From Candidatus Vondammii sp. HM_W22 (lineage in GTDB: Bacteria; Pseudomonadota; Gammaproteobacteria; Chromatiales; Chromatiaceae), in contig NZ_CP099567.1 of assembly GCF_022530855.2 (NCBI RefSeq), positions 1,302,001 to 1,366,000 of the forward strand: DNA of 64,000 bases. The letters run 5' to 3'. Positions 4,280-56,141 of this stretch are shown piece by piece. Below the pieces are notes generated by a model. It did not search any database, was not told the origin of the DNA, and worked only from the letters and a program-made list of their open reading frames with translations. Positions within the stretch are counted from its first letter, which is position 1; every line of letters begins with the position of its first letter. Position numbers and translations under genes: made by a program.

Positions 4280-7200
4280 GGGGTCCTAGGGATTTTCCCT
4301 CGTAAACGGACATAAACGGCTAGATCCCTTTCCCCGCCTACGTTTCCCGAGAGGGGTACTTTTCGATTTCCGAACATTTTAGGGTAATTTGGCTAGAATC
4401 GTGGCCTTTAGGTAACGATTATGACCACAGAGAAACGACTCAAGATCCTCACCGAAGCGGAAATTGTTGACTTGTTCGGCCCGCCAGCACTCAATCAAAA
4501 CGATCAACGATTCTTCTTCACACTCAATGATATCGAATTGGCCCAGTGCCAGAAGATTCGCAGGCGTGATCAACGCTGCATGTTCGTTGTGTTGCTCGGC
4601 TACTTTAAAGTGAAGCCCATTTCTTTGAGTCCCGGCTACCACCAGATCAAGCATGATATTAAATATGTCTGCTCAGAAGTGTTTCCCGGTTCCGGTCTGA
4701 GTCCCTTCAATCTAACTCAAAAAACTCGTGTGCGTATCTATCATCGCATATACGAATTAACAAACCATCAACGCTGGGAGAACGAACGGCACAGCGCCGC
4801 GCTGACAATAGACCTTCGCGAACACGCACAAGCATGGGCTCAACCGCGAGCGTTGTTTGACAGGGCTATTGAATACTTAGCGGCACAAAAAATTAGCATT
4901 CCTGGGTACTCAGTTTTGCAAGACTTGATCAGTGATGTCGTCAGTGCTACCAACGATCAACTCATTCGCCAACTCGAAGACCTCATCTCTGTTGACTTGA
5001 CTTCTATGTTGTCTGACTTTGTCGAAGGCAATGACCCACTGACTCTACGGCGGTTAAGAATGGCGGCTAAGAACATTACAAGGAGTGAGTTGCAAAAAGA
5101 ACTCGCCGTACATCAGCACATTCAATCTTGGATGCTAGAAGTCGATGAGGTTTTAAGTCAGCTATCAATATCGTTGAAGAATCAGCAGTACTTTGCTGAA
5201 AGAGTGACTTACTATGGTGCCAAACTAAAACGCCAACCTGTTGGTTATCAACGCCTCTACTTGTTGTGCTATTTGCAATCGCGTTGGCAACAGGCACTGG
5301 AACGAATAGCCGATGGCTTTGTTCATCATCTTTTTCAAAGAAAACAGAAAGCCAAAATATACGCGAGAGAATCTGTTTATCAAGACTGGCAACGAGCTGC
5401 GAGTAACGTCAGTAAAGCGGCGCAAGTGTTGCGTCTTTTTATCGACGACAGAGTAGATCAACAACAACCGTTTGGGGCGTTACGGCAGCATGCTTTTAAA
5501 CTTCTAGCGGCGAAAGATCTGGAATCCGTTTGCCTGTTTTTGAATGATCAAAAGCGATCGGTTGAAGAGGCCACGTGGCAGTACTTCGATCACCGGGTGA
5601 GCTTACGAGAAGGCTTACTTCGTGATCTATTCCTGTGCTTGCACTTTGAAGGCGGTGAAAAAACACAGCGCCTGGCAGCTACACTGCATCGTGCGCAGCG
5701 TGATCTTATCGCCGATGGTGAAATCTCAATCGGCGCAATGGATAGCCGCTTGCCTACCAAGAAGCAATTGTCGTTCATGCAAGACTCGAGCGGCGTGATG
5801 AATAAAGGTCGGTACGAATGGTTCCTTTACTTGCAAATCCCCAATCGGTTGAATGGCCAGCTCACACTGCCAAATGTGTTTAAATACAGGGCTTTGGAGG
5901 CTGATCTAGTCAATCGTGAGCGATGGACAGAAGAAAAAGACGCGCTATTAGAGCGCACCCAGTTGCCTAAATTAGCCGCCAATCCCAACAAACTCATTGA
6001 CCAAATGGCCAAAAACCTGGGTGTTAGATTACAAGAAGTGAGTCACTATCTAGAACACGATGACAACCGAAATATTATCCTGAGAAACCCCAAAGGAAAG
6101 CGCCATTGGCGCTTACCCACGGCCAACAAAAAGTACTTGGTCAATAATCCGTTCTTCCAGCAACTACCCACGACTGGCGTTGCCGATGTGTTGCGAATGG
6201 TCGATCGCGACACAGGCTTCCTTGATGACTTTAAGCATGTACTGGGTGCACAGTCGAAGAGCCGAGCACACGAGTATGACCTGTTGGCTATCTTGGTGGG
6301 CAACGCGACCAACCAAGGCATTTATGGTATCGCTCAAATATCCGATCGCACTTACGATCAGCTCAGCACCATTCAGGCGAACTATCTGAGGTTAGAAACA
6401 CTGAACGCAGCCAACGATCGCATCAACAACGCAACGGCTAAGCTTCCGATCTTCAAGCACTACAATATCCAAGAAGATGTTATCCACGCCAGTGCTGATG
6501 GTCAGAAGTTCGAATCCCGGCGTGAGACATTTAAAACACGTTACTCGTCAAAATACTTTGGCACGCAAAAAGGCGTGTCGGCCATGAGCTTGATCGCCAA
6601 TCATGCGGCCATCAATGCTCGTGTGATCGGTGCTAACGAGCACGAGTCCCACTACATCTTCGATCTACTGATGAACAATAGTTCCGAGATCGTGCCAGAC
6701 GTACTGTCTACCGATACGCACGGAGTCAATCACATCAACTTCGCATTGCTAGATCTCTTTGGGTACAGCTTTGCTCCACGCTATGCTCAGGTGGGTCGTG
6801 TCATCAATGAGATGTTCGATGTCAAAGAAGACAAGGATAAGAAAATCCAATTGAGTCTGAAAAAGCCCATCAACACCAAGCTCATCGCGGCTCACTGGGA
6901 TACTATACAACGGATCATGATCTCACTTTATGAACGCAAAACAACGCAAGCGACATTGGTTAGAAAGCTCTCAGGTTACAAAAGCAGCCACCCGTTACTC
7001 GGGGCACTAACGGAATACAATCGTATGGTGAAAGCGAATTATTTACTCAACTACATCGATGACGTCAGTCTGCGCGACTACGTTCAGCGAGCACTCAATC
7101 GAGGCGAGGCTTACCACCAACTGCGTCGTGCAATCAGCAACGTCAATGGTGATCAGTTCCGCGGCAGCTCGGATGAGGAGATCCAACTGTGGAACGAATG

Positions 7201-7517
7201 TGCTCGCCTGGTTACCAACGCTATAATCTACTTTAACTCGGCCATACTCAGTCAGTTGCTGACTAGCTTTGAATATCAGAAGGATGATGAAAAAATCCAG
7301 ATCGTCAAACAAGCCTCCCCAGTTGCCTGGTACAACATCAACCTGAAAGGCACCTACAACTTCCAAATGAGTGGGAAATTGCCGGATCTGGACGAATTAA
7401 TGAGCTCAATCGACGGTTATAAGCCTGTTCAGGAAAAGTACCCACATCCGGAAACGTAAGCAGGGCATGGGATCTAGCCGTTTATGTCCGTTTACGAGGG
7501 AAAATCCCTAGGACCCC
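4280..7517 (+). mobile_element. Tn3-type element, family I, copy a (complete)
   Basis: The element is 3238 bp and bounded by perfect 49-bp inverted repeats beginning GGGGTCCTAGGGATTTTCCC; similarity continues imperfectly for about 35 bp further inward. It contains one gene, the transposase at 4421-7459, with no resolvase, res site or cargo, so it is a minimal element comparable in organisation to IS1071. The left flank ends in CAAAA and the right flank begins AATTA, so there is no direct duplication. The matching CAAAA is instead found, inverted, at copy b (15279-15283), showing that the right half has been exchanged by an inversion. At protein level copies a and b are identical. Confidence 0.95.
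4421..7459 (+). CDS. tnpA: Tn3-family transposase (family I)
   Basis: This 1012-residue protein has the length and layout of Tn3-family transposases: an N-terminal DNA-binding region (from MTTEKRLKILTEAEIVDLFG), a long helical middle and a C-terminal DDE catalytic domain. The likely catalytic residues are Asp near 693 (HASADGQKF), Asp near 765 (LSTDTHGVNH) and Glu near 896 (LNRGEAYHQLRRAI). It would bind the 49-bp ends and carry out replicative transposition, forming cointegrates. With no resolvase in the element, cointegrates must be resolved by host recombination, which favours deletions and inversions between copies such as the one seen here. The ATG is preceded by only a weak purine-rich site (AGG). 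The gene is intact and is repeated exactly at 15342-18380. Confidence 0.95.
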   Translation: MTTEKRLKILTEAEIVDLFGPPALNQNDQRFFFTLNDIELAQCQKIRRRDQRCMFVVLLGYFKVKPISLSPGYHQIKHDIKYVCSEVFPGSGLSPFNLTQKTRVRIYHRIYELTNHQRWENERHSAALTIDLREHAQAWAQPRALFDRAIEYLAAQKISIPGYSVLQDLISDVVSATNDQLIRQLEDLISVDLTSMLSDFVEGNDPLTLRRLRMAAKNITRSELQKELAVHQHIQSWMLEVDEVLSQLSISLKNQQYFAERVTYYGAKLKRQPVGYQRLYLLCYLQSRWQQALERIADGFVHHLFQRKQKAKIYARESVYQDWQRAASNVSKAAQVLRLFIDDRVDQQQPFGALRQHAFKLLAAKDLESVCLFLNDQKRSVEEATWQYFDHRVSLREGLLRDLFLCLHFEGGEKTQRLAATLHRAQRDLIADGEISIGAMDSRLPTKKQLSFMQDSSGVMNKGRYEWFLYLQIPNRLNGQLTLPNVFKYRALEADLVNRERWTEEKDALLERTQLPKLAANPNKLIDQMAKNLGVRLQEVSHYLEHDDNRNIILRNPKGKRHWRLPTANKKYLVNNPFFQQLPTTGVADVLRMVDRDTGFLDDFKHVLGAQSKSRAHEYDLLAILVGNATNQGIYGIAQISDRTYDQLSTIQANYLRLETLNAANDRINNATAKLPIFKHYNIQEDVIHASADGQKFESRRETFKTRYSSKYFGTQKGVSAMSLIANHAAINARVIGANEHESHYIFDLLMNNSSEIVPDVLSTDTHGVNHINFALLDLFGYSFAPRYAQVGRVINEMFDVKEDKDKKIQLSLKKPINTKLIAAHWDTIQRIMISLYERKTTQATLVRKLSGYKSSHPLLGALTEYNRMVKANYLLNYIDDVSLRDYVQRALNRGEAYHQLRRAISNVNGDQFRGSSDEEIQLWNECARLVTNAIIYFNSAILSQLLTSFEYQKDDEKIQIVKQASPVAWYNINLKGTYNFQMSGKLPDLDELMSSIDGYKPVQEKYPHPET

Positions 7518-15283: not shown

Positions 15284-18200
15284 GGGGTCCTAGGGATTTT
15301 CCCTCGTAAACGGACATAAACGGCTAGATCCCATGCCCTGCTTACGTTTCCGGATGTGGGTACTTTTCCTGAACAGGCTTATAACCGTCGATTGAGCTCA
15401 TTAATTCGTCCAGATCCGGCAATTTCCCACTCATTTGGAAGTTGTAGGTGCCTTTCAGGTTGATGTTGTACCAGGCAACTGGGGAGGCTTGTTTGACGAT
15501 CTGGATTTTTTCATCATCCTTCTGATATTCAAAGCTAGTCAGCAACTGACTGAGTATGGCCGAGTTAAAGTAGATTATAGCGTTGGTAACCAGGCGAGCA
15601 CATTCGTTCCACAGTTGGATCTCCTCATCCGAGCTGCCGCGGAACTGATCACCATTGACGTTGCTGATTGCACGACGCAGTTGGTGGTAAGCCTCGCCTC
15701 GATTGAGTGCTCGCTGAACGTAGTCGCGCAGACTGACGTCATCGATGTAGTTGAGTAAATAATTCGCTTTCACCATACGATTGTATTCCGTTAGTGCCCC
15801 GAGTAACGGGTGGCTGCTTTTGTAACCTGAGAGCTTTCTAACCAATGTCGCTTGCGTTGTTTTGCGTTCATAAAGTGAGATCATGATCCGTTGTATAGTA
15901 TCCCAGTGAGCCGCGATGAGCTTGGTGTTGATGGGCTTTTTCAGACTCAATTGGATTTTCTTATCCTTGTCTTCTTTGACATCGAACATCTCATTGATGA
16001 CACGACCCACCTGAGCATAGCGTGGAGCAAAGCTGTACCCAAAGAGATCTAGCAATGCGAAGTTGATGTGATTGACTCCGTGCGTATCGGTAGACAGTAC
16101 GTCTGGCACGATCTCGGAACTATTGTTCATCAGTAGATCGAAGATGTAGTGGGACTCGTGCTCGTTAGCACCGATCACACGAGCATTGATGGCCGCATGA
16201 TTGGCGATCAAGCTCATGGCCGACACGCCTTTTTGCGTGCCAAAGTATTTTGACGAGTAACGTGTTTTAAATGTCTCACGCCGGGATTCGAACTTCTGAC
16301 CATCAGCACTGGCGTGGATAACATCTTCTTGGATATTGTAGTGCTTGAAGATCGGAAGCTTAGCCGTTGCGTTGTTGATGCGATCGTTGGCTGCGTTCAG
16401 TGTTTCTAACCTCAGATAGTTCGCCTGAATGGTGCTGAGCTGATCGTAAGTGCGATCGGATATTTGAGCGATACCATAAATGCCTTGGTTGGTCGCGTTG
16501 CCCACCAAGATAGCCAACAGGTCATACTCGTGTGCTCGGCTCTTCGACTGTGCACCCAGTACATGCTTAAAGTCATCAAGGAAGCCTGTGTCGCGATCGA
16601 CCATTCGCAACACATCGGCAACGCCAGTCGTGGGTAGTTGCTGGAAGAACGGATTATTGACCAAGTACTTTTTGTTGGCCGTGGGTAAGCGCCAATGGCG
16701 CTTTCCTTTGGGGTTTCTCAGGATAATATTTCGGTTGTCATCGTGTTCTAGATAGTGACTCACTTCTTGTAATCTAACACCCAGGTTTTTGGCCATTTGG
16801 TCAATGAGTTTGTTGGGATTGGCGGCTAATTTAGGCAACTGGGTGCGCTCTAATAGCGCGTCTTTTTCTTCTGTCCATCGCTCACGATTGACTAGATCAG
16901 CCTCCAAAGCCCTGTATTTAAACACATTTGGCAGTGTGAGCTGGCCATTCAACCGATTGGGGATTTGCAAGTAAAGGAACCATTCGTACCGACCTTTATT
17001 CATCACGCCGCTCGAGTCTTGCATGAACGACAATTGCTTCTTGGTAGGCAAGCGGCTATCCATTGCGCCGATTGAGATTTCACCATCGGCGATAAGATCA
17101 CGCTGCGCACGATGCAGTGTAGCTGCCAGGCGCTGTGTTTTTTCACCGCCTTCAAAGTGCAAGCACAGGAATAGATCACGAAGTAAGCCTTCTCGTAAGC
17201 TCACCCGGTGATCGAAGTACTGCCACGTGGCCTCTTCAACCGATCGCTTTTGATCATTCAAAAACAGGCAAACGGATTCCAGATCTTTCGCCGCTAGAAG
17301 TTTAAAAGCATGCTGCCGTAACGCCCCAAACGGTTGTTGTTGATCTACTCTGTCGTCGATAAAAAGACGCAACACTTGCGCCGCTTTACTGACGTTACTC
17401 GCAGCTCGTTGCCAGTCTTGATAAACAGATTCTCTCGCGTATATTTTGGCTTTCTGTTTTCTTTGAAAAAGATGATGAACAAAGCCATCGGCTATTCGTT
17501 CCAGTGCCTGTTGCCAACGCGATTGCAAATAGCACAACAAGTAGAGGCGTTGATAACCAACAGGTTGGCGTTTTAGTTTGGCACCATAGTAAGTCACTCT
17601 TTCAGCAAAGTACTGCTGATTCTTCAACGATATTGATAGCTGACTTAAAACCTCATCGACTTCTAGCATCCAAGATTGAATGTGCTGATGTACGGCGAGT
17701 TCTTTTTGCAACTCACTCCTTGTAATGTTCTTAGCCGCCATTCTTAACCGCCGTAGAGTCAGTGGGTCATTGCCTTCGACAAAGTCAGACAACATAGAAG
17801 TCAAGTCAACAGAGATGAGGTCTTCGAGTTGGCGAATGAGTTGATCGTTGGTAGCACTGACGACATCACTGATCAAGTCTTGCAAAACTGAGTACCCAGG
17901 AATGCTAATTTTTTGTGCCGCTAAGTATTCAATAGCCCTGTCAAACAACGCTCGCGGTTGAGCCCATGCTTGTGCGTGTTCGCGAAGGTCTATTGTCAGC
18001 GCGGCGCTGTGCCGTTCGTTCTCCCAGCGTTGATGGTTTGTTAATTCGTATATGCGATGATAGATACGCACACGAGTTTTTTGAGTTAGATTGAAGGGAC
18101 TCAGACCGGAACCGGGAAACACTTCTGAGCAGACATATTTAATATCATGCTTGATCTGGTGGTAGCCGGGACTCAAAGAAATGGGCTTCACTTTAAAGTA

Positions 18201-18521
18201 GCCGAGCAACACAACGAACATGCAGCGTTGATCACGCCTGCGAATCTTCTGGCACTGGGCCAATTCGATATCATTGAGTGTGAAGAAGAATCGTTGATCG
18301 TTTTGATTGAGTGCTGGCGGGCCGAACAAGTCAACAATTTCCGCTTCGGTGAGGATCTTGAGTCGTTTCTCTGTGGTCATAATCGTTACCTAAAGGCCAC
18401 GATTCTAGCCAAATTACCCTAAAATGTTCGGAAATCGAAAAGTACCCCTCTCGGGAAACGTAGGCGGGGAAAGGGATCTAGCCGTTTATGTCCGTTTACG
18501 AGGGAAAATCCCTAGGACCCC
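15284..18521 (-). mobile_element. Tn3-type element, family I, copy b (complete, inverted)
   Basis: 3238 bp, same length and ends as the copy at 4280-7517 but in opposite orientation, with an identical transposase. Left flank TTTTG is the reverse complement of CAAAA beside copy a; right flank is TTAAA. The pair of oppositely oriented identical copies is the substrate that allowed the 7518-15283 segment to flip. Confidence 0.95.
15342..18380 (-). CDS. tnpA: Tn3-family transposase (family I), second identical copy
   Basis: A 1012-residue protein identical in sequence to that encoded at 4421-7459, with the same predicted catalytic triad (Asp in HASADGQKF, Asp in LSTDTHG, Glu in LNRGEAYH). Complete identity over more than 3 kb points to either very recent replicative transposition or gene conversion between the copies. 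It ends 58 bp inside the element's terminal repeat. Nothing else is encoded in the element. Confidence 0.95.
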   Translation of the reverse strand: MTTEKRLKILTEAEIVDLFGPPALNQNDQRFFFTLNDIELAQCQKIRRRDQRCMFVVLLGYFKVKPISLSPGYHQIKHDIKYVCSEVFPGSGLSPFNLTQKTRVRIYHRIYELTNHQRWENERHSAALTIDLREHAQAWAQPRALFDRAIEYLAAQKISIPGYSVLQDLISDVVSATNDQLIRQLEDLISVDLTSMLSDFVEGNDPLTLRRLRMAAKNITRSELQKELAVHQHIQSWMLEVDEVLSQLSISLKNQQYFAERVTYYGAKLKRQPVGYQRLYLLCYLQSRWQQALERIADGFVHHLFQRKQKAKIYARESVYQDWQRAASNVSKAAQVLRLFIDDRVDQQQPFGALRQHAFKLLAAKDLESVCLFLNDQKRSVEEATWQYFDHRVSLREGLLRDLFLCLHFEGGEKTQRLAATLHRAQRDLIADGEISIGAMDSRLPTKKQLSFMQDSSGVMNKGRYEWFLYLQIPNRLNGQLTLPNVFKYRALEADLVNRERWTEEKDALLERTQLPKLAANPNKLIDQMAKNLGVRLQEVSHYLEHDDNRNIILRNPKGKRHWRLPTANKKYLVNNPFFQQLPTTGVADVLRMVDRDTGFLDDFKHVLGAQSKSRAHEYDLLAILVGNATNQGIYGIAQISDRTYDQLSTIQANYLRLETLNAANDRINNATAKLPIFKHYNIQEDVIHASADGQKFESRRETFKTRYSSKYFGTQKGVSAMSLIANHAAINARVIGANEHESHYIFDLLMNNSSEIVPDVLSTDTHGVNHINFALLDLFGYSFAPRYAQVGRVINEMFDVKEDKDKKIQLSLKKPINTKLIAAHWDTIQRIMISLYERKTTQATLVRKLSGYKSSHPLLGALTEYNRMVKANYLLNYIDDVSLRDYVQRALNRGEAYHQLRRAISNVNGDQFRGSSDEEIQLWNECARLVTNAIIYFNSAILSQLLTSFEYQKDDEKIQIVKQASPVAWYNINLKGTYNFQMSGKLPDLDELMSSIDGYKPVQEKYPHPET

Positions 18522-32189: not shown

Positions 32190-33600
32190 AATTTGATAAA
32201 ATAAACGTCCGTGAAAGGGGTAAAAGCAGAGAAAAACTGGACGAAACAGAGGTGGATAATTGAGCAAACCCAAGACAGACAATCCCAACCAGCAAAGTTT
32301 CCTGCACCAGAACTTACTGGATCAACTGAACCCCAAGCATCCACTTTTGCTACTGGCCAGACAGATAGACTGGTCATATTTTGATGCTGAATTTGCCCCG
32401 CTTTATTCTCATCTTGGAAAGCCCTCAAAACCCATCCGCCTAATGGTGGGTCTCTCGATACTCAAGCATCTGGAAAACCTCAGTGACGAGGTTCTGATTC
32501 AACGCTGGATACAAAATCCCTACTACCCGAGTTTTACGGGTGAGATCGAATTCCAATGGCAACTTCCTTGTGACCCCTCCGACCTGACTTACTTCAGAAA
32601 GCGTATTGGCAACGAAGGTTTTGAAAAGGTCCTGGCTGCCTCTATCGCCTTACATCAAGAAAAGGCGATCGAAGATAAAATGTGTATCGACACTACCGTA
32701 CAAGAGAAAAACATTACCTTTCCAACTGATGCAAAGCAGTACCGAAAGATACACGGGCAGTTACTCAAGATGGCCCGAGCAGAAGGTATCGTGCTCAGTC
32801 GAAGCCATGAGAAGGAAGTAAAAATTCTCAAGCTCCCCACCCGATTTGCCACACATCCGAGGAATCGTAAAAAGGCACGTAAGGCTGTAAAGCGATTAAA
32901 GACCATCAGCGGCCGATTACTGCGTGAAATACAGCGTAAGATGACCGCAGAACAACAGAAATTCTATGCAGAAAAGTTCGCCCTGTACCAGCGCATGCTG
33001 AATCAGAAGCGTGCTGATAAAAACAAGTTGTACAGCCTACATGAACCTCATGTTTACTGTATGAGCAAAGGCAAGGCACAGCAGCGTTATGAGTTTGGCA
33101 CCAAGGCATCAATCACCACCACAAGGGACGCGGGCATTGTGATTGGTGCCCTGGCTTTTGAGAAGAATGTATTTGATGGTCACACCGTACCTGAGGTCTT
33201 GGCACAGGTGAAACGTCTCATCAATCGAGTACCCAAAGTGGGTATTGCTGATCGAGGTTATCGGGGCAAATCAAAGGTTAATGACACCCAGATAGTAACG
33301 CCAAAGCCTGCTAGGAAGAATACCTCAGAAGAAGCCATGGCATTAGCCAGAAAACGTTTCAGAAGACGAGCTGGCATTGAGCCTGTGGTCACTTAAAGAG
33401 TGACCACAGGCTAAAAAGGAACTTTCTTAAAGGCTTTGCCGGGGATCAGATTAACTTGCTTATGGCGGCGGCTGCCTTCAACTTCAGAAAATGGATGAGG
33501 GAGGTTCTTTTTGTGCTGAAAAATATCATGTCCATACTGTTGTTCCTGTTTGCAAAACAGAAACAACAGTATTATTAAGTGCCTGGAATGAATATTTCAG
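32190..33600 (+). mobile_element. IS5-family-like element, nearly complete
   Basis: One long transposase gene (32260-33579, see next entry) with short flanking sequence; the exact ends are uncertain because no second copy is available for comparison. Candidate outer ends lie near 32190 and 33600. Confidence 0.6.
32260..33579 (+). pseudogene. IS5-type transposase with a late frameshift
   Basis: The start is a TTG at 32260 preceded by GAGGTGG at good spacing (MSKPKTDNPNQQSFLHQNLL). The first domain is DUF772-like (KPIRLMVGLSILKHLENLSD, DPSDLTYFRKRIGNEG). The DDE domain has the first Asp in CIDTTVQEKNITFPTD, the second in KVGIADRGYRGKSK and the Glu in RRAGIEPVV. Immediately after EPVV the frame runs into a stop at 33394-33396. 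The expected THLKSDHRLKRNFLKGFAGD continues in another frame to 33579. A perfect 14-bp inverted repeat (AGCCTGTGGTCACT / AGTGACCACAGGCT) sits exactly on the break point. Confidence 0.88.
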
Positions 33601-33629
33601 GCTCGACTAATTAATGCTAAAAATAAAAC

Positions 33630-34646
33630 AGAATGATAAAACATAAATGCAGATGCGATTGCTACCCACAATCTTGAAGCAGCACGAAGCCGGTGTTTCG
33701 GTGTCAGAGCTGGCGTGCGAGCACGGGGTTAGCACGGCACTGATTTATCAGTGGCGTGCCAAATACGGTGGAATGGATGCCTCCCTGATGAAAGAGGTCA
33801 AAGATCTACGTGCTGAGAATGCCCGACTTAAGAAGATGTACGCAGAAGAACGGATCAAAGCGGAACTGCGACAGGAAGCCCTTGAGGGAAAGTTGTAGCG
33901 CCATCTCGTCGAAGGGGGATGGCGAAGCACACCGTGAGCCGTGATGGTATCAGTATCCGTTTAGCCTGTATTACTTTTGGTATCAGTCAGACCTGTTACC
34001 GATATGAGGCTAAATGCTCTAGTGAAAACAGGCAGATTGCCGATTGGCTATTGCGACTGAGACAAACGCACAAGCGTTGGGGCTTTGGTTTGTGCTTTCT
34101 GTATCTACGCAATGTGAAAGGCTATGGCTGGAACCACAAGCGGGTGTATCGCATTTATCGGGAGTTAGAACTTAACCTTCTGATTAAGCCCCGAAAACGG
34201 ATCAAACGGGATTATCCCGGAGAATTGGATGTGCCCAAGGCAAAGAATCAAGTCTGGTCGATGGATTTTATGTCAGACCAGCTTCGTGGTGGGCGCCACT
34301 TCCTTACGTTCAATGTGATGGATGATTACAACCGTGAAGGGCTGGGAATTGAAGTGGATTTATCACTACCCTCATCGCGCGTGGTTCGGGCGCTAGAGCA
34401 AATCATTGAGTGGCGTGGAAAACCAGCGGCACTGCGGTGTGACAACGGGCCAGAGTATCTTAGTCAAACCCTGGTGAACTGGGCGAATGCGCACCGAATT
34501 ACCTTGCTGTATATCCAACCGGGCAAGCCGATACAGAATGCCTGTATTGAGCGGTTTAACCGCACAGCGAGGCATGAATGGTTGGACATGCACCTGTTTG
34601 AGAGCATTGCGCATGCCCGGTTATTAGCCACTCAGTGGCTTTGGCA
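33630..34646 (+). mobile_element. IS3-family element, 3' end lost
   Basis: OrfA is at 33647-33898 (its first ~11 residues are corrupt; then ILKQHEAGVSVSELACEHGV and LRAENARLKKMYAEER). OrfB is at 33919-34646. After LLATQWLW near 34646 the sequence diverges into unrelated DNA, so the last ~15 residues and the right end are missing. Confidence 0.85.
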
Positions 34647-34713
34647 ATGGAAGAGTACCTCCGAGGCAACTGCTAAAGGCAGCTTAACCCTCTATTTAAA
34701 ACTCAGGTTATAA
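33919..34713 (+). pseudogene. IS3-family transposase orfB with replaced C-terminus
   Basis: Integrase-type DDE transposase. An HTH_21-like start ISIRLACITFGISQTCYRYE is followed by the catalytic core: first Asp in [11 protein letters not shown], second Asp in ALRCDNGPEYLS, Glu in IQNACIERFNRTARHEWLD. In intact IS3 elements OrfA and OrfB are joined by -1 frameshifting into OrfAB. Here the last residues after ATQWLW are replaced by foreign sequence (QWKSTSEATAKGS...), so activity is doubtful. Confidence 0.85.
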
Positions 34714-34937
34714 ATGGGGCGATTACAGATAATGAATATGCGGAAATGGGGGGATTTGTTTATCGGCCGAATGAAAGGCTCTGAGCTGAAACGACTGAAG
34801 CCATTGGAGTGGTAGAGAGGCGAGGCAGAATCCTGGATGGATGTCCGCAGTAGTTCGAGGTACCACGAATTGTCGTGGGCAGTCTCGTGGTAATTCTGAG
34901 CATTTTCTGTTCAGAATAGAACGCCCCCCTCCAATAT
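34647..34937. other. Non-coding or unassigned stretch with two hairpins, between IS3 and the 4.5S RNA gene
   Basis: No confident gene. It contains dyads TACCACGA...TCGTGGTA (about 34860-34892) and ATTCTGA...TCAGAAT (about 34893-34918). These lie 3' of the 4.5S RNA gene (transcribed leftward) and might act in its processing or termination, though there is no T-run. Confidence 0.35.
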
Positions 34938-35051
34938 GGTGGCGGCCCGTACCAGCCACACCCCGGCACACAAGTCCACTGCTGCGGCTGCTCCCTTCCG
35001 GGCCTGACCGGATTCACAGTTTTTCGTTGCGGGGGACCGATACAGGCCACC
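34938..35051 (-). ncRNA. ffs: 4.5S RNA of the signal recognition particle
   Basis: The minus strand holds the conserved SRP RNA apical hairpin: GGTCAGG ... CCGGAAGG ... AGCAGCC, with the GGAA tetraloop and both internal loops that bind Ffh. The flanking strands pair (GGTGGC at the 5' end with GCCACC at the 3' end; CCCCGCAACG region and GTGTGCCGGGG further in). The total of about 114 nt matches the bacterial 4.5S form. The RNA and Ffh direct ribosomes making membrane proteins to FtsY. The gene body looks intact, but only 9 nt upstream of the mature 5' end an array of 22 perfect 8-bp repeats begins, so the normal promoter is not recognisable; TGTAAT directly upstream is a weak -10 candidate. 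The usual neighbour dnaX is not seen. Confidence 0.93.
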
Positions 35052-35060
35052 ATTACAGAC

Positions 35061-35237
35061 ACCAACCCACCAACCCACCAACCCACCAACCCACCAACCC
35101 ACCAACCCACCAACCCACCAACCCACCAACCCACCAACCCACCAACCCACCAACCCACCAACCCACCAACCCACCAACCCACCAACCCACCAACCCACCA
35201 ACCCACCAACCCACCAACCCACCAACCCACCAACCCA
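35061..35237. repeat. 22 perfect tandem copies of an 8-bp repeat upstream of ffs
   Basis: The plus strand reads ACCAACCC repeated without a single mismatch over 177 bp. The minus strand, which is the ffs coding strand, is GGGTTGGT repeated, with regular G-runs capable of forming G-quadruplexes. The array occupies the place where the ffs promoter should be. Any long proline/threonine-rich frame through it is an artefact of the repeat. Confidence 0.98.
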
Positions 35238-35317
35238 GGCGAATTATCCCGGTCTATCGTGATGGGGTCAACCTTGAGGAGCTACTTACGGAGAAAATAG
35301 CGGTTTTACCCGATTAA
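35238..35317 (+). pseudogene. 3' tail of an unknown gene
   Basis: After the repeat array the plus strand reads RIIPVYRDGVNLEELLTEKI-AVLPD then a stop at 35315-35317. It looks like a real protein C-terminus separated from its start. I cannot assign it; the short IIPV pattern is vaguely TIR-like but not enough for a call. Confidence 0.3.
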
Positions 35318-35393
35318 AATCCTTTAAAAGCGCTCTGCGAACCATTAATCGAACTTTTTTCTGCACTTTTCTGCTCAAAAAATTGTAATCCTC

Positions 35394-36118
35394 CCTGATA
35401 AAAGGCCCATCACAAACTAGAGTTCTCCGGTTAAACTAACCACAGACAGGAGAACGAAGATGAAGAAGAGCGAAAGCCAGATTATCCGTATTTTGAAGGA
35501 AGTAGAGGACGGTAGGGTATACCCGATGCCACCTACTACAACTAGAAGAGAAAATATGGTGGTAGGCATCAGATATCAAGCGTCTAAAAGAGCTTGAAAA
35601 TGAGAACAGGTGTCTCAAGCAGATGCTCGCCAATTTAAGCCTGGAACATGCCACACTTAAGGATGTCATTGAAAAAAGCTCTAAAGCCAGCTGAGAAGCG
35701 CGAACTGGTTGATTATCTGCAAGACGAGCATGTTCTGACTCTATGAGCCTGATACAGAACGAGACCGGCCCGTTATAGATGCACTGCAACAGCTGGAGAC
35801 GAAACAACCAACGTATGGATTTGGTTTGATATTCGACACGCTCCGGCGCGAAGGAAAGCCCTGAAACCATAAGCGAGTATACCGCATATACAAGCTACTG
35901 AAGCTTAATTTCAGACGCAAGGGTAAAAAGCGGTTGCCTAACCGTAATCCTCAGCCGCTGGTTGTTCCGGAGGCAATGAATCAATCATGGTCAATGGATT
36001 TTATGAGTGATTCACTGATGACCGGAGGCGTTTTAGAACATTCAACATTCTCGATGATTTTAACCGAGAGGCGTTGGCCATTGAGATTGATTTAAATCTA
36101 CCGGCACCGCGCATTATT
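35394..36118 (+). pseudogene. IS3-family (IS407-like) element, left part of a split copy
   Basis: Left end TGTAATCCTCCCTGA pairs with the right end at 40408-40422. OrfA begins MKKSESQIIRILKEVEDGR (35460) and is frameshifted; later LKELENENRCLKQMLANLSL and VIEKSSKAS are readable. OrfB is frameshifted but recognisable ([29 protein letters not shown]). At 36118 it is interrupted by IS256 alpha copy 2. The remainder is at 40039-40422. Confidence 0.88.
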
Positions 36119-53261: not shown

Positions 53262-56141
53262 GGGGTCCTAGGGATTTTCCCTCGTAAACGGACATAAACG
53301 GCTAGATCCCTTTCCCCGCCTACGTTTCCCGAGAGGGGTACTTTTCGATTTCCGAACATTTTAGGGTAATTTGGCTAGAATCGTGGCCTTTAGGTAACGA
53401 TTATGACCACAGAGAAACGACTCAAGATCCTCACCGAAGCGGAAATTGTTGACTTGTTCGGCCCGCCAGCACTCAATCAAAACGATCAACGATTCTTCTT
53501 CACACTCAATGATATCGAATTGGCCCAGTGCCAGAAGATTCGCAGGCGTGATCAACGCTGCATGTTCGTTGTGTTGCTCGGCTACTTTAAAGTGAAGCCC
53601 ATTTCTTTGAGTCCCGGCTACCACCAGATCAAGCATGATATTAAATATGTCTGCTCAGAAGTGTTTCCCGGTTCCGGTCTGAGTCCCTTCAATCTAACTC
53701 AAAAAACTCGTGTGCGTATCTATCATCGCATATACGAATTAACAAACCATCAACGCTGGGAGAACGAACGGCACAGCGCCGCGCTGACAATAGACCTTCG
53801 CGAACACGCACAAGCATGGGCTCAACCGCGAGCGTTGTTTGACAGGGCTATTGAATACTTAGCGGCACAAAAAATTAGCATTCCTGGGTACTCAGTTTTG
53901 CAAGACTTGATCAGTGATGTCGTCAGTGCTACCAACGATCAACTCATTCGCCAACTCGAAGACCTCATCTCTGTTGACTTGACTTCTATGTTGTCTGACT
54001 TTGTCGAAGGCAATGACCCACTGACTCTACGGCGGTTAAGAATGGCGGCTAAGAACATTACAAGGAGTGAGTTGCAAAAAGAACTCGCCGTACATCAGCA
54101 CATTCAATCTTGGATGCTAGAAGTCGATGAGGTTTTAAGTCAGCTATCAATATCGTTGAAGAATCAGCAGTACTTTGCTGAAAGAGTGACTTACTATGGT
54201 GCCAAACTAAAACGCCAACCTGTTGGTTATCAACGCCTCTACTTGTTGTGCTATTTGCAATCGCGTTGGCAACAGGCACTGGAACGAATAGCCGATGGCT
54301 TTGTTCATCATCTTTTTCAAAGAAAACAGAAAGCCAAAATATACGCGAGAGAATCTGTTTATCAAGACTGGCAACGAGCTGCGAGTAACGTCAGTAAAGC
54401 GGCGCAAGTGTTGCGTCTTTTTATCGACGACAGAGTAGATCAACAACAACCGTTTGGGGCGTTACGGCAGCATGCTTTTAAACTTCTAGCGGCGAAAGAT
54501 CTGGAATCCGTTTGCCTGTTTTTGAATGATCAAAAGCGATCGGTTGAAGAGGCCACGTGGCAGTACTTCGATCACCGGGTGAGCTTACGAGAAGGCTTAC
54601 TTCGTGATCTATTCCTGTGCTTGCACTTTGAAGGCGGTGAAAAAACACAGCGCCTGGCAGCTACACTGCATCGTGCGCAGCGTGATCTTATCGCCGATGG
54701 TGAAATCTCAATCGGCGCAATGGATAGCCGCTTGCCTACCAAGAAGCAATTGTCGTTCATGCAAGACTCGAGCGGCGTGATGAATAAAGGTCGGTACGAA
54801 TGGTTCCTTTACTTGCAAATCCCCAATCGGTTGAATGGCCAGCTCACACTGCCAAATGTGTTTAAATACAGGGCTTTGGAGGCTGATCTAGTCAATCGTG
54901 AGCGATGGACAGAAGAAGGTGGGCAACGCGACCAACCAAGGCATTTATGGTATCGCTCAAATATCCGATCGCACTTACGATCAGCTCAGCACCATTCAGG
55001 CGAACTATCTGAGGTTAGAAACACTGAACGCAGCCAACGATCGCATCAACAACGCAACGGCTAAGCTTCCGATCTTCAAGCACTACAATATCCAAGAAGA
55101 TGTTATCCACGCCAGTGCTGATGGTCAGAAGTTCGAATCCCGGCGTGAGACATTTAAAACACGTTACTCGTCAAAATACTTTGGCACGCAAAAAGGCGTG
55201 TCGGCCATGAGCTTGATCGCCAATCATGCGGCCATCAATGCTCGTGTGATCGGTGCTAACGAGCACGAGTCCCACTACATCTTCGATCTACTGATGAACA
55301 ATAGTTCCGAGATCGTGCCAGACGTACTGTCTACCGATACGCACGGAGTCAATCACATCAACTTCGCATTGCTAGATCTCTTTGGGTACAGCTTTGCTCC
55401 ACGCTATGCTCAGGTGGGTCGTGTCATCAATGAGATGTTCGATGTCAAAGAAGACAAGGATAAGAAAATCCAATTGAGTCTGAAAAAGCCCATCAACACC
55501 AAGCTCATCGCGGCTCACTGGGATACTATACAACGGATCATGATCTCACTTTATGAACGCAAAACAACGCAAGCGACATTGGTTAGAAAGCTCTCAGGTT
55601 ACAAAAGCAGCCACCCGTTACTCGGGGCACTAACGGAATACAATCGTATGGTGAAAGCGAATTATTTACTCAACTACATCGATGACGTCAGTCTGCGCGA
55701 CTACGTTCAGCGAGCACTCAATCGAGGCGAGGCTTACCACCAACTGCGTCGTGCAATCAGCAACGTCAATGGTGATCAGTTCCGCGGCAGCTCGGATGAG
55801 GAGATCCAACTGTGGAACGAATGTGCTCGCCTGGTTACCAACGCTATAATCTACTTTAACTCGGCCATACTCAGTCAGTTGCTGACTAGCTTTGAATATC
55901 AGAAGGATGATGAAAAAATCCAGATCGTCAAATCAAGCCTCCCCAGTTGCCTGGTACAACATCAACCTGAAAGGCACCTACAACTTCCAAATGAGTGGGA
56001 AATTGCCGGATCTGGACGAATTAATGAGCTCAATCGACGGTTATAAGCCTGTTCAGGAAAAGTACCCACATCCGGAAACGTAAGCAGGGCATGGGATCTA
56101 GCCGTTTATGTCCGTTTACGAGGGAAAATCCCTAGGACCCC
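53262..56141 (+). mobile_element. Tn3-type element, family I, copy c, internally deleted
   Basis: Same 49-bp ends as copies a and b, but 2880 bp instead of 3238. About 359 bp are missing from the transposase between 54916 and 54917, and one extra T near 55932 adds a frameshift. The flanks (AATAA / ACTAT) are not a duplication: left is one IS3 type, right another. Confidence 0.93.
53403..56083 (+). pseudogene. Tn3-family transposase (family I) with 359-bp deletion
   Basis: The N-terminal ~505 residues match the intact copies through RWTEE. Sequence then jumps to GNATNQGIYGIAQISDRTYD in another frame, continues through the DDE motifs, and a 1-bp insertion near 55932 shifts the last 45 residues. 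The terminal repeats are intact, so this copy could still be mobilised by transposase from copies a or b. Confidence 0.93.

Follow-up and report, generated by a model that had tools for sequence, protein, structure and literature searches.

The window, the whole stretch of 64,000 nucleotides that was analysed, carries on its minus strand a 4.5S RNA gene (ffs) in the order promoter, array, linker and 4.5S RNA, within a short single-copy island:

34938-35051, minus strand: mature 4.5S (SRP) RNA, ffs, 114 nt, the only copy found (RF00169, hairpin fold, congener identity)
35052-35059, minus strand: linker TCTGTAAT, 8 nt, joining array and mature RNA (sequence), whose 3′ end is the predicted RNase P cleavage site
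35060-35237, minus strand: perfect tandem array, T(GGGTTGGT)x22 G (TRF), in the predicted transcribed 5′ leader
35236-35242, minus strand: predicted transcription start region, 1-7 nt past the -10 (TCGCCT, then the array's first G), from promoter geometry
35243-35271, minus strand: sigma70-type promoter, with -35 TTGACC at 35271-35266, a 17-bp spacer and -10 GATAAT at 35248-35243 (promoter scan, homology)
About 34720-35383, no strand: single-copy island of about 660 bp with ffs, array and promoter (blastn, 800 kb of this genome)

That the 4.5S RNA gene is intact, as a sequence-only reading of this DNA had held, is borne out by a full-length match to RF00169 (34947-35042, minus strand, model positions 1-97 of 97; 70.1 bits, gathering score 40) and by the fold of 35051-34938, a single closed hairpin of 114 nt (-60.6 kcal/mol) that retains the apical GGAA loop and the conserved asymmetric loop, with GGUCAGGCCCGGAAGGGAGCAGCC present. 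The congener, the single other species of the genus compared, scores slightly higher (74.7 bits), and the two ffs genes are 92.3% identical across 117 nt. In its mature hairpin and conserved apical region the gene resembles the bacterial small SRP RNA (RF00169), a system in which, as in E. coli, RNase P processes the 5′ leader. SRP is normally essential, and the search for a second ffs, a check that the earlier reading had proposed, returned no further SRP RNA gene when RF00169 was run over the 3,352,437-base genome; a gene for RNase P RNA was detected in the same genome.

TRF places the array at 35060-35237 (period 8, 22.2 copies, 100% matches, 0 indels, score 356), which gives (GGGTTGGT)x22.2 on the minus strand, 178 bp in total and free of mismatches. 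The perfect array of 22 copies described earlier is thereby confirmed, though its span is 178 bp and not 177. Similarly, the array does adjoin the gene, but the gap to the RNA 5′ end is 8 nt rather than 9, since folding puts the closed hairpin at 35051-34938; relatives show a similar (T)ATGGYGG junction at this linker. Long open frames with WWVGGLVG and PTHQPTNP repeats cross the array on both strands (window 34760-35233, minus; 34841-35317, plus), they are a consequence of the 8-bp unit and are unlikely to be genes.

The genome is a single contig of 3.35 Mb (G+C 50.6% in 800 kb; two 16S genes), probably from a tubeworm symbiont, and the window carries a heavy IS load. Searched by blastn against 800 kb from this genome, 34720-34937 gives no second copy. 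Repeat homology sets in at 35384 on the right-hand side and, on the left, takes up most of 33500-34720, which leaves the island between multi-copy relics of IS3-like and other transposases. The congener has ffs followed by dnaX, ybaB and recR. Here that order is broken (G000:C1:1904150-1905784 and window 34938-35051): dnaX-ybaB-recR lies 567 kb from ffs, behind a broken aldehyde dehydrogenase gene, and ffs has no dnaX downstream. The separation apparently arose by an IS-associated rearrangement; no remnant ffs was found beside dnaX, which is preceded by the broken aldehyde dehydrogenase gene. Two further observations concern insertion-sequence DNA in the window. An Rfam match to isrN (window 35683-35778, minus strand; 49.9 bits, threshold 44) probably reflects transposase DNA rather than a small RNA, since it is located inside a multi-copy insertion-sequence relic. 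Three copies of a gene for a transposase-like protein of 1012 aa occur (window 4421-7459, 15342-18380 and 53403-56046), two with identical translations and one disrupted, which suggests recent transposition.

Promoter and leader of ffs

The array had been thought to fill the position of the promoter, and this proved to be wrong. On the minus strand the DNA upstream of the array reads GGTTGACCCCATCACGATAGACCGGGATAATTCGCCT, followed by the first unit, and a promoter scan identifies there TTGACC-17-GATAAT, with 10 of 12 matches, ending about 5 bp upstream of the array (sites with at least 9 of 12 matches occur by chance at 0.4 per 700 bp in shuffled sequence). Homology is the stronger argument for retention of the promoter: the congener has GGTTGACCGCTAGAGGGTAGACCGGGATAATCCCGCC ahead of its ffs, with 27 of 36 bases identical to the promoter here (conserved sequence in the congener, TTGACCGCTAGAGGGTAGACCGGGATAAT), and TTGAC[CG]-17/18-[GC]ATAAT stands at the same place before ffs in about 18 further genomes of the family. 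Judged by sequence, the promoter is homologous to the ffs promoters of the congener and other relatives. We also considered a promoter downstream of the array, where the sole -10-like string, TGTAAT, is without A at position 2 and without a -35, and would set the start inside the mature RNA; it was rejected.

Measured from the end of the -10 to the mature 5′ end, the leader is 191 nt long, of which 178 are array. Relatives with the same promoter have leaders of 21-107 nt, most of them 37-57 and that of the congener 21, and removal of the 178-bp array would leave 13 nt, of the same order as in the congener. SRP RNA genes of relatives have a short leader with a strong promoter immediately upstream, whereas here the -10 and the RNA are joined through the octamer array. 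Because relatives carry a leader at this place, between the shared promoter and ffs, the array would sit in transcribed leader, and probably expanded inside it. The start predicted from promoter geometry lies 1-7 nt past the -10, and therefore nearly the whole array should be transcribed. Long ffs leaders appear to be tolerated, since one relative with the same promoter (G012, L026) has a 107-nt leader of ordinary sequence with no repeats. No tandem arrays were found in the ffs leaders of relatives. Upstream of its ffs gene, a different relative (L018, G028) carries two heptamer arrays, both apparently ahead of the likely promoter; one is a perfect 47-bp array of GCTGGTA, located about 170 to 125 nt before the ffs core.

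Repeats in this genome and elsewhere

We surveyed perfect arrays with units of 5-12 bp, at least 24 bp in length and at least 3 copies, in 864 kb made up of the window and an 800-kb sample of the same genome. The 800 kb contained 15 such arrays and 400 kb of the congener 5, while 400 kb of base-shuffled sequence contained no perfect array of at least 24 bp. The next longest array in the 864 kb is (GTCTATGTT)x9 of 82 bp (L126:2020-2101), less than half the length of the ffs array; with no such array in shuffled sequence either, the latter is not a product of chance. Other perfect arrays of the same genome include:

L115:13100-13159: (TGGGTA)10
L130:3728-3783: (GCCGATTA)7
L125:19843-19893: (AAGCCA)8.5
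L160:3872-3944: two adjoining decamer arrays
L163:12506-12548: (GGCTCCA)6

Repeats of this class are locally common, with the ffs array as their extreme case, and the genome seems prone to expansion of 6-10-bp repeats. The perfect repetition suggests recent expansion and not long selection, in agreement with the earlier proposal that the expansion was recent.

The octamer has a single exact locus in the genome, with no other array of the same unit. At least 3 consecutive units were found in none of the other 209 genomes of the family, congener included, this genome being the one of 210. Stretches of at least 4 units were found 21 times in unrelated prokaryotes, none of them near an ffs core, and a search of viral contigs found no array-ffs junction. 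The closest published parallel is from Xanthomonas and Nostoc, where no regulatory role could be assigned to perfect heptamer arrays that are G-rich and up to 26 units long (Rehm et al. 2015, PMC4692102). Those repeats (GGGAATC, GGGGATT) are, like the ffs array, perfect or near-perfect, G-rich, short-unit, intergenic and capable of forming G-quadruplexes. However, they are heptamers dispersed in many copies, whereas the octamer occupies one locus and is predicted to lie within the transcribed leader of an essential RNA. A literature search for SRP RNA together with tandem repeats gave nothing relevant.

Folding of the leader

The coding strand of the array had been described as G-rich and able to form quadruplexes, and calculation agrees: its G4Hunter score of 1.6 is the highest among all 178-nt stretches of the window, and two-layer quadruplexes are predicted. 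What the leader does to the RNA depends, in equilibrium models of folding and interaction energies, on whether these structures are allowed. With a quadruplex term, some ten two-layer quadruplexes form in the leader, and at none of the copy numbers tested between 0 and 30 does the RNA lose its mature fold, whereas in the minimum-energy fold without quadruplexes at least 8 units refold the 4.5S hairpin, the mature fold being lost between 5 and 8 units. For at least 8 units, the interaction between leader and mature RNA amounts to a modest -6 to -9 kcal/mol without quadruplexes and -3 to -5 kcal/mol with them; it changes little between 10 and 26 units when the quadruplex term is left out, and between 14 and 26 when it is included. 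Given the refolding of the 4.5S RNA that the model without the term predicts for 8 units upward, the array may not be harmless.

A unit specially designed against misfolding can be rejected, as for most permuted G5T3 octamers the calculated interference is at least as large, with several reaching -16 to -20 kcal/mol; the unit therefore looks untuned, with no sign of a design to block the RNA or to spare it. In the account given in PMC8191793, Guo and Bartel (2016) reported that RNA quadruplexes are depleted in bacteria and that they reduce growth when placed in a reporter; the array may therefore carry a fitness cost.

Explanations for the array

We consider it probable that this is a functional 4.5S RNA gene, present once, and that slippage expansion of a G-rich octamer, neutral or mildly costly, has made its transcribed leader longer. 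Transcription would begin from the conserved promoter that immediately precedes the array, and RNA polymerase would transcribe the repeats, the leader folding on itself into the calculated quadruplexes while the 4.5S hairpin forms. RNase P would then cleave at the base of the hairpin and the leader be thrown away. In E. coli, where the 4.5S precursor has a short leader, RNase P naturally acts on pre-4.5S RNA and removes that leader (PMC11143913), and by analogy we infer the same processing here. As such a leader is disposable, an eroding genome rich in IS elements, in which many arrays of this sort arise, would have tolerated the expansion. Formation of the quadruplexes in the cell and neutrality of the array are likewise inferred, and the length of the array, which is extreme, and its placement where RNA quadruplexes should be costly both run counter to this model.

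The sequence-only reading had seen in the array a possible phase-variable regulator. Simple-sequence contingency loci do resemble it in having perfect tandem short units near a gene, but they act by switching spacing or frame, whereas the ffs tract lies downstream of the promoter and outside any reading frame. With the array at the predicted start or beyond it, adding or losing units would alter the length of the leader and not promoter spacing, and classical phase variation is therefore unlikely. Both usual routes would be closed, the 17-bp spacing being unaffected by an array in this position and a reading frame being inapplicable to a non-coding gene. A weaker effect of copy number, by way of elongation or processing, is possible. 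In its fuller form this would make the array a copy-number-variable tuner, with slippage changing the number of units between cells, and leader length or quadruplex load altering the elongation, processing or folding of 4.5S RNA such that cells differ in SRP capacity. A long perfect octamer array is expected to be unstable, the gene is the only one for SRP RNA that was found, and the loss of the mature fold between 5 and 8 units in the model without quadruplexes might act as a threshold. However, promoter spacing is not altered by the array, the quadruplex term preserves the mature fold throughout, the calculated interaction energies are roughly flat over the larger copy numbers, and low SRP in an essential pathway is expected to be deleterious, all of which makes such a tuner improbable. 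More specifically, and very improbably, a hypervariable quadruplex leader could set 4.5S yield, with quadruplexes that fold co-transcriptionally preventing the G-rich leader from trapping the C-rich strand of the SRP RNA, unit number tuning processing and the protein-export capacity of symbiont cells varying as a result. A leader kept by selection to insulate, stabilise or delay maturation of the RNA, for example as a protective structured 5′ tail, would account for the top G-quadruplex score of the window and for some ten predicted quadruplexes that keep the leader off the mature RNA. We nevertheless think it a poor candidate, given that the array was found in none of the other family genomes, congener included, that its perfect repetition suggests recent expansion, that RNase P would remove the leader and that two-layer RNA quadruplexes are weak.

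Two further explanations appear still less probable. The gene might be in the course of being disabled by genome erosion, the array being one lesion and SRP function weak or lost. The heavy IS load around the gene, its separation from dnaX and its slightly lower RF00169 score than in the congener (70.1 versus 74.7 bits) point in this direction, but the hairpin with both its loops is intact, the promoter is conserved and no other SRP RNA gene was found to supply a normally essential function, so that decay is very hard to credit. The repeat number, or the array as a whole, might also be an artefact of assembly: if the genome is that of HMS1, a single animal supplied the PacBio Sequel and Illumina reads for its assembly, in which contigs were merged manually, and short reads cannot size an octamer array of 178 bp. 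PacBio reads of at least 15 kb, however, easily span it, and both of its borders match the sequence order in relatives. We therefore regard an artefact as most improbable, the exact count of 22 units being all that is uncertain.

The locus shows how a repeat can look like a substitute for a promoter that in fact survives beyond the repeat. Were unit number to change the yield of 4.5S RNA, this would amount to repeat-length control of a housekeeping RNA, for which a literature search found no precedent and of which we know no other case. If, instead, the favoured reading of a disposable leader lengthened by slippage is true, the gene would provide a natural test of how much quadruplex-forming foreign sequence the leader of an essential RNA can carry in bacteria, in which selection is reported to act against structures of this type.
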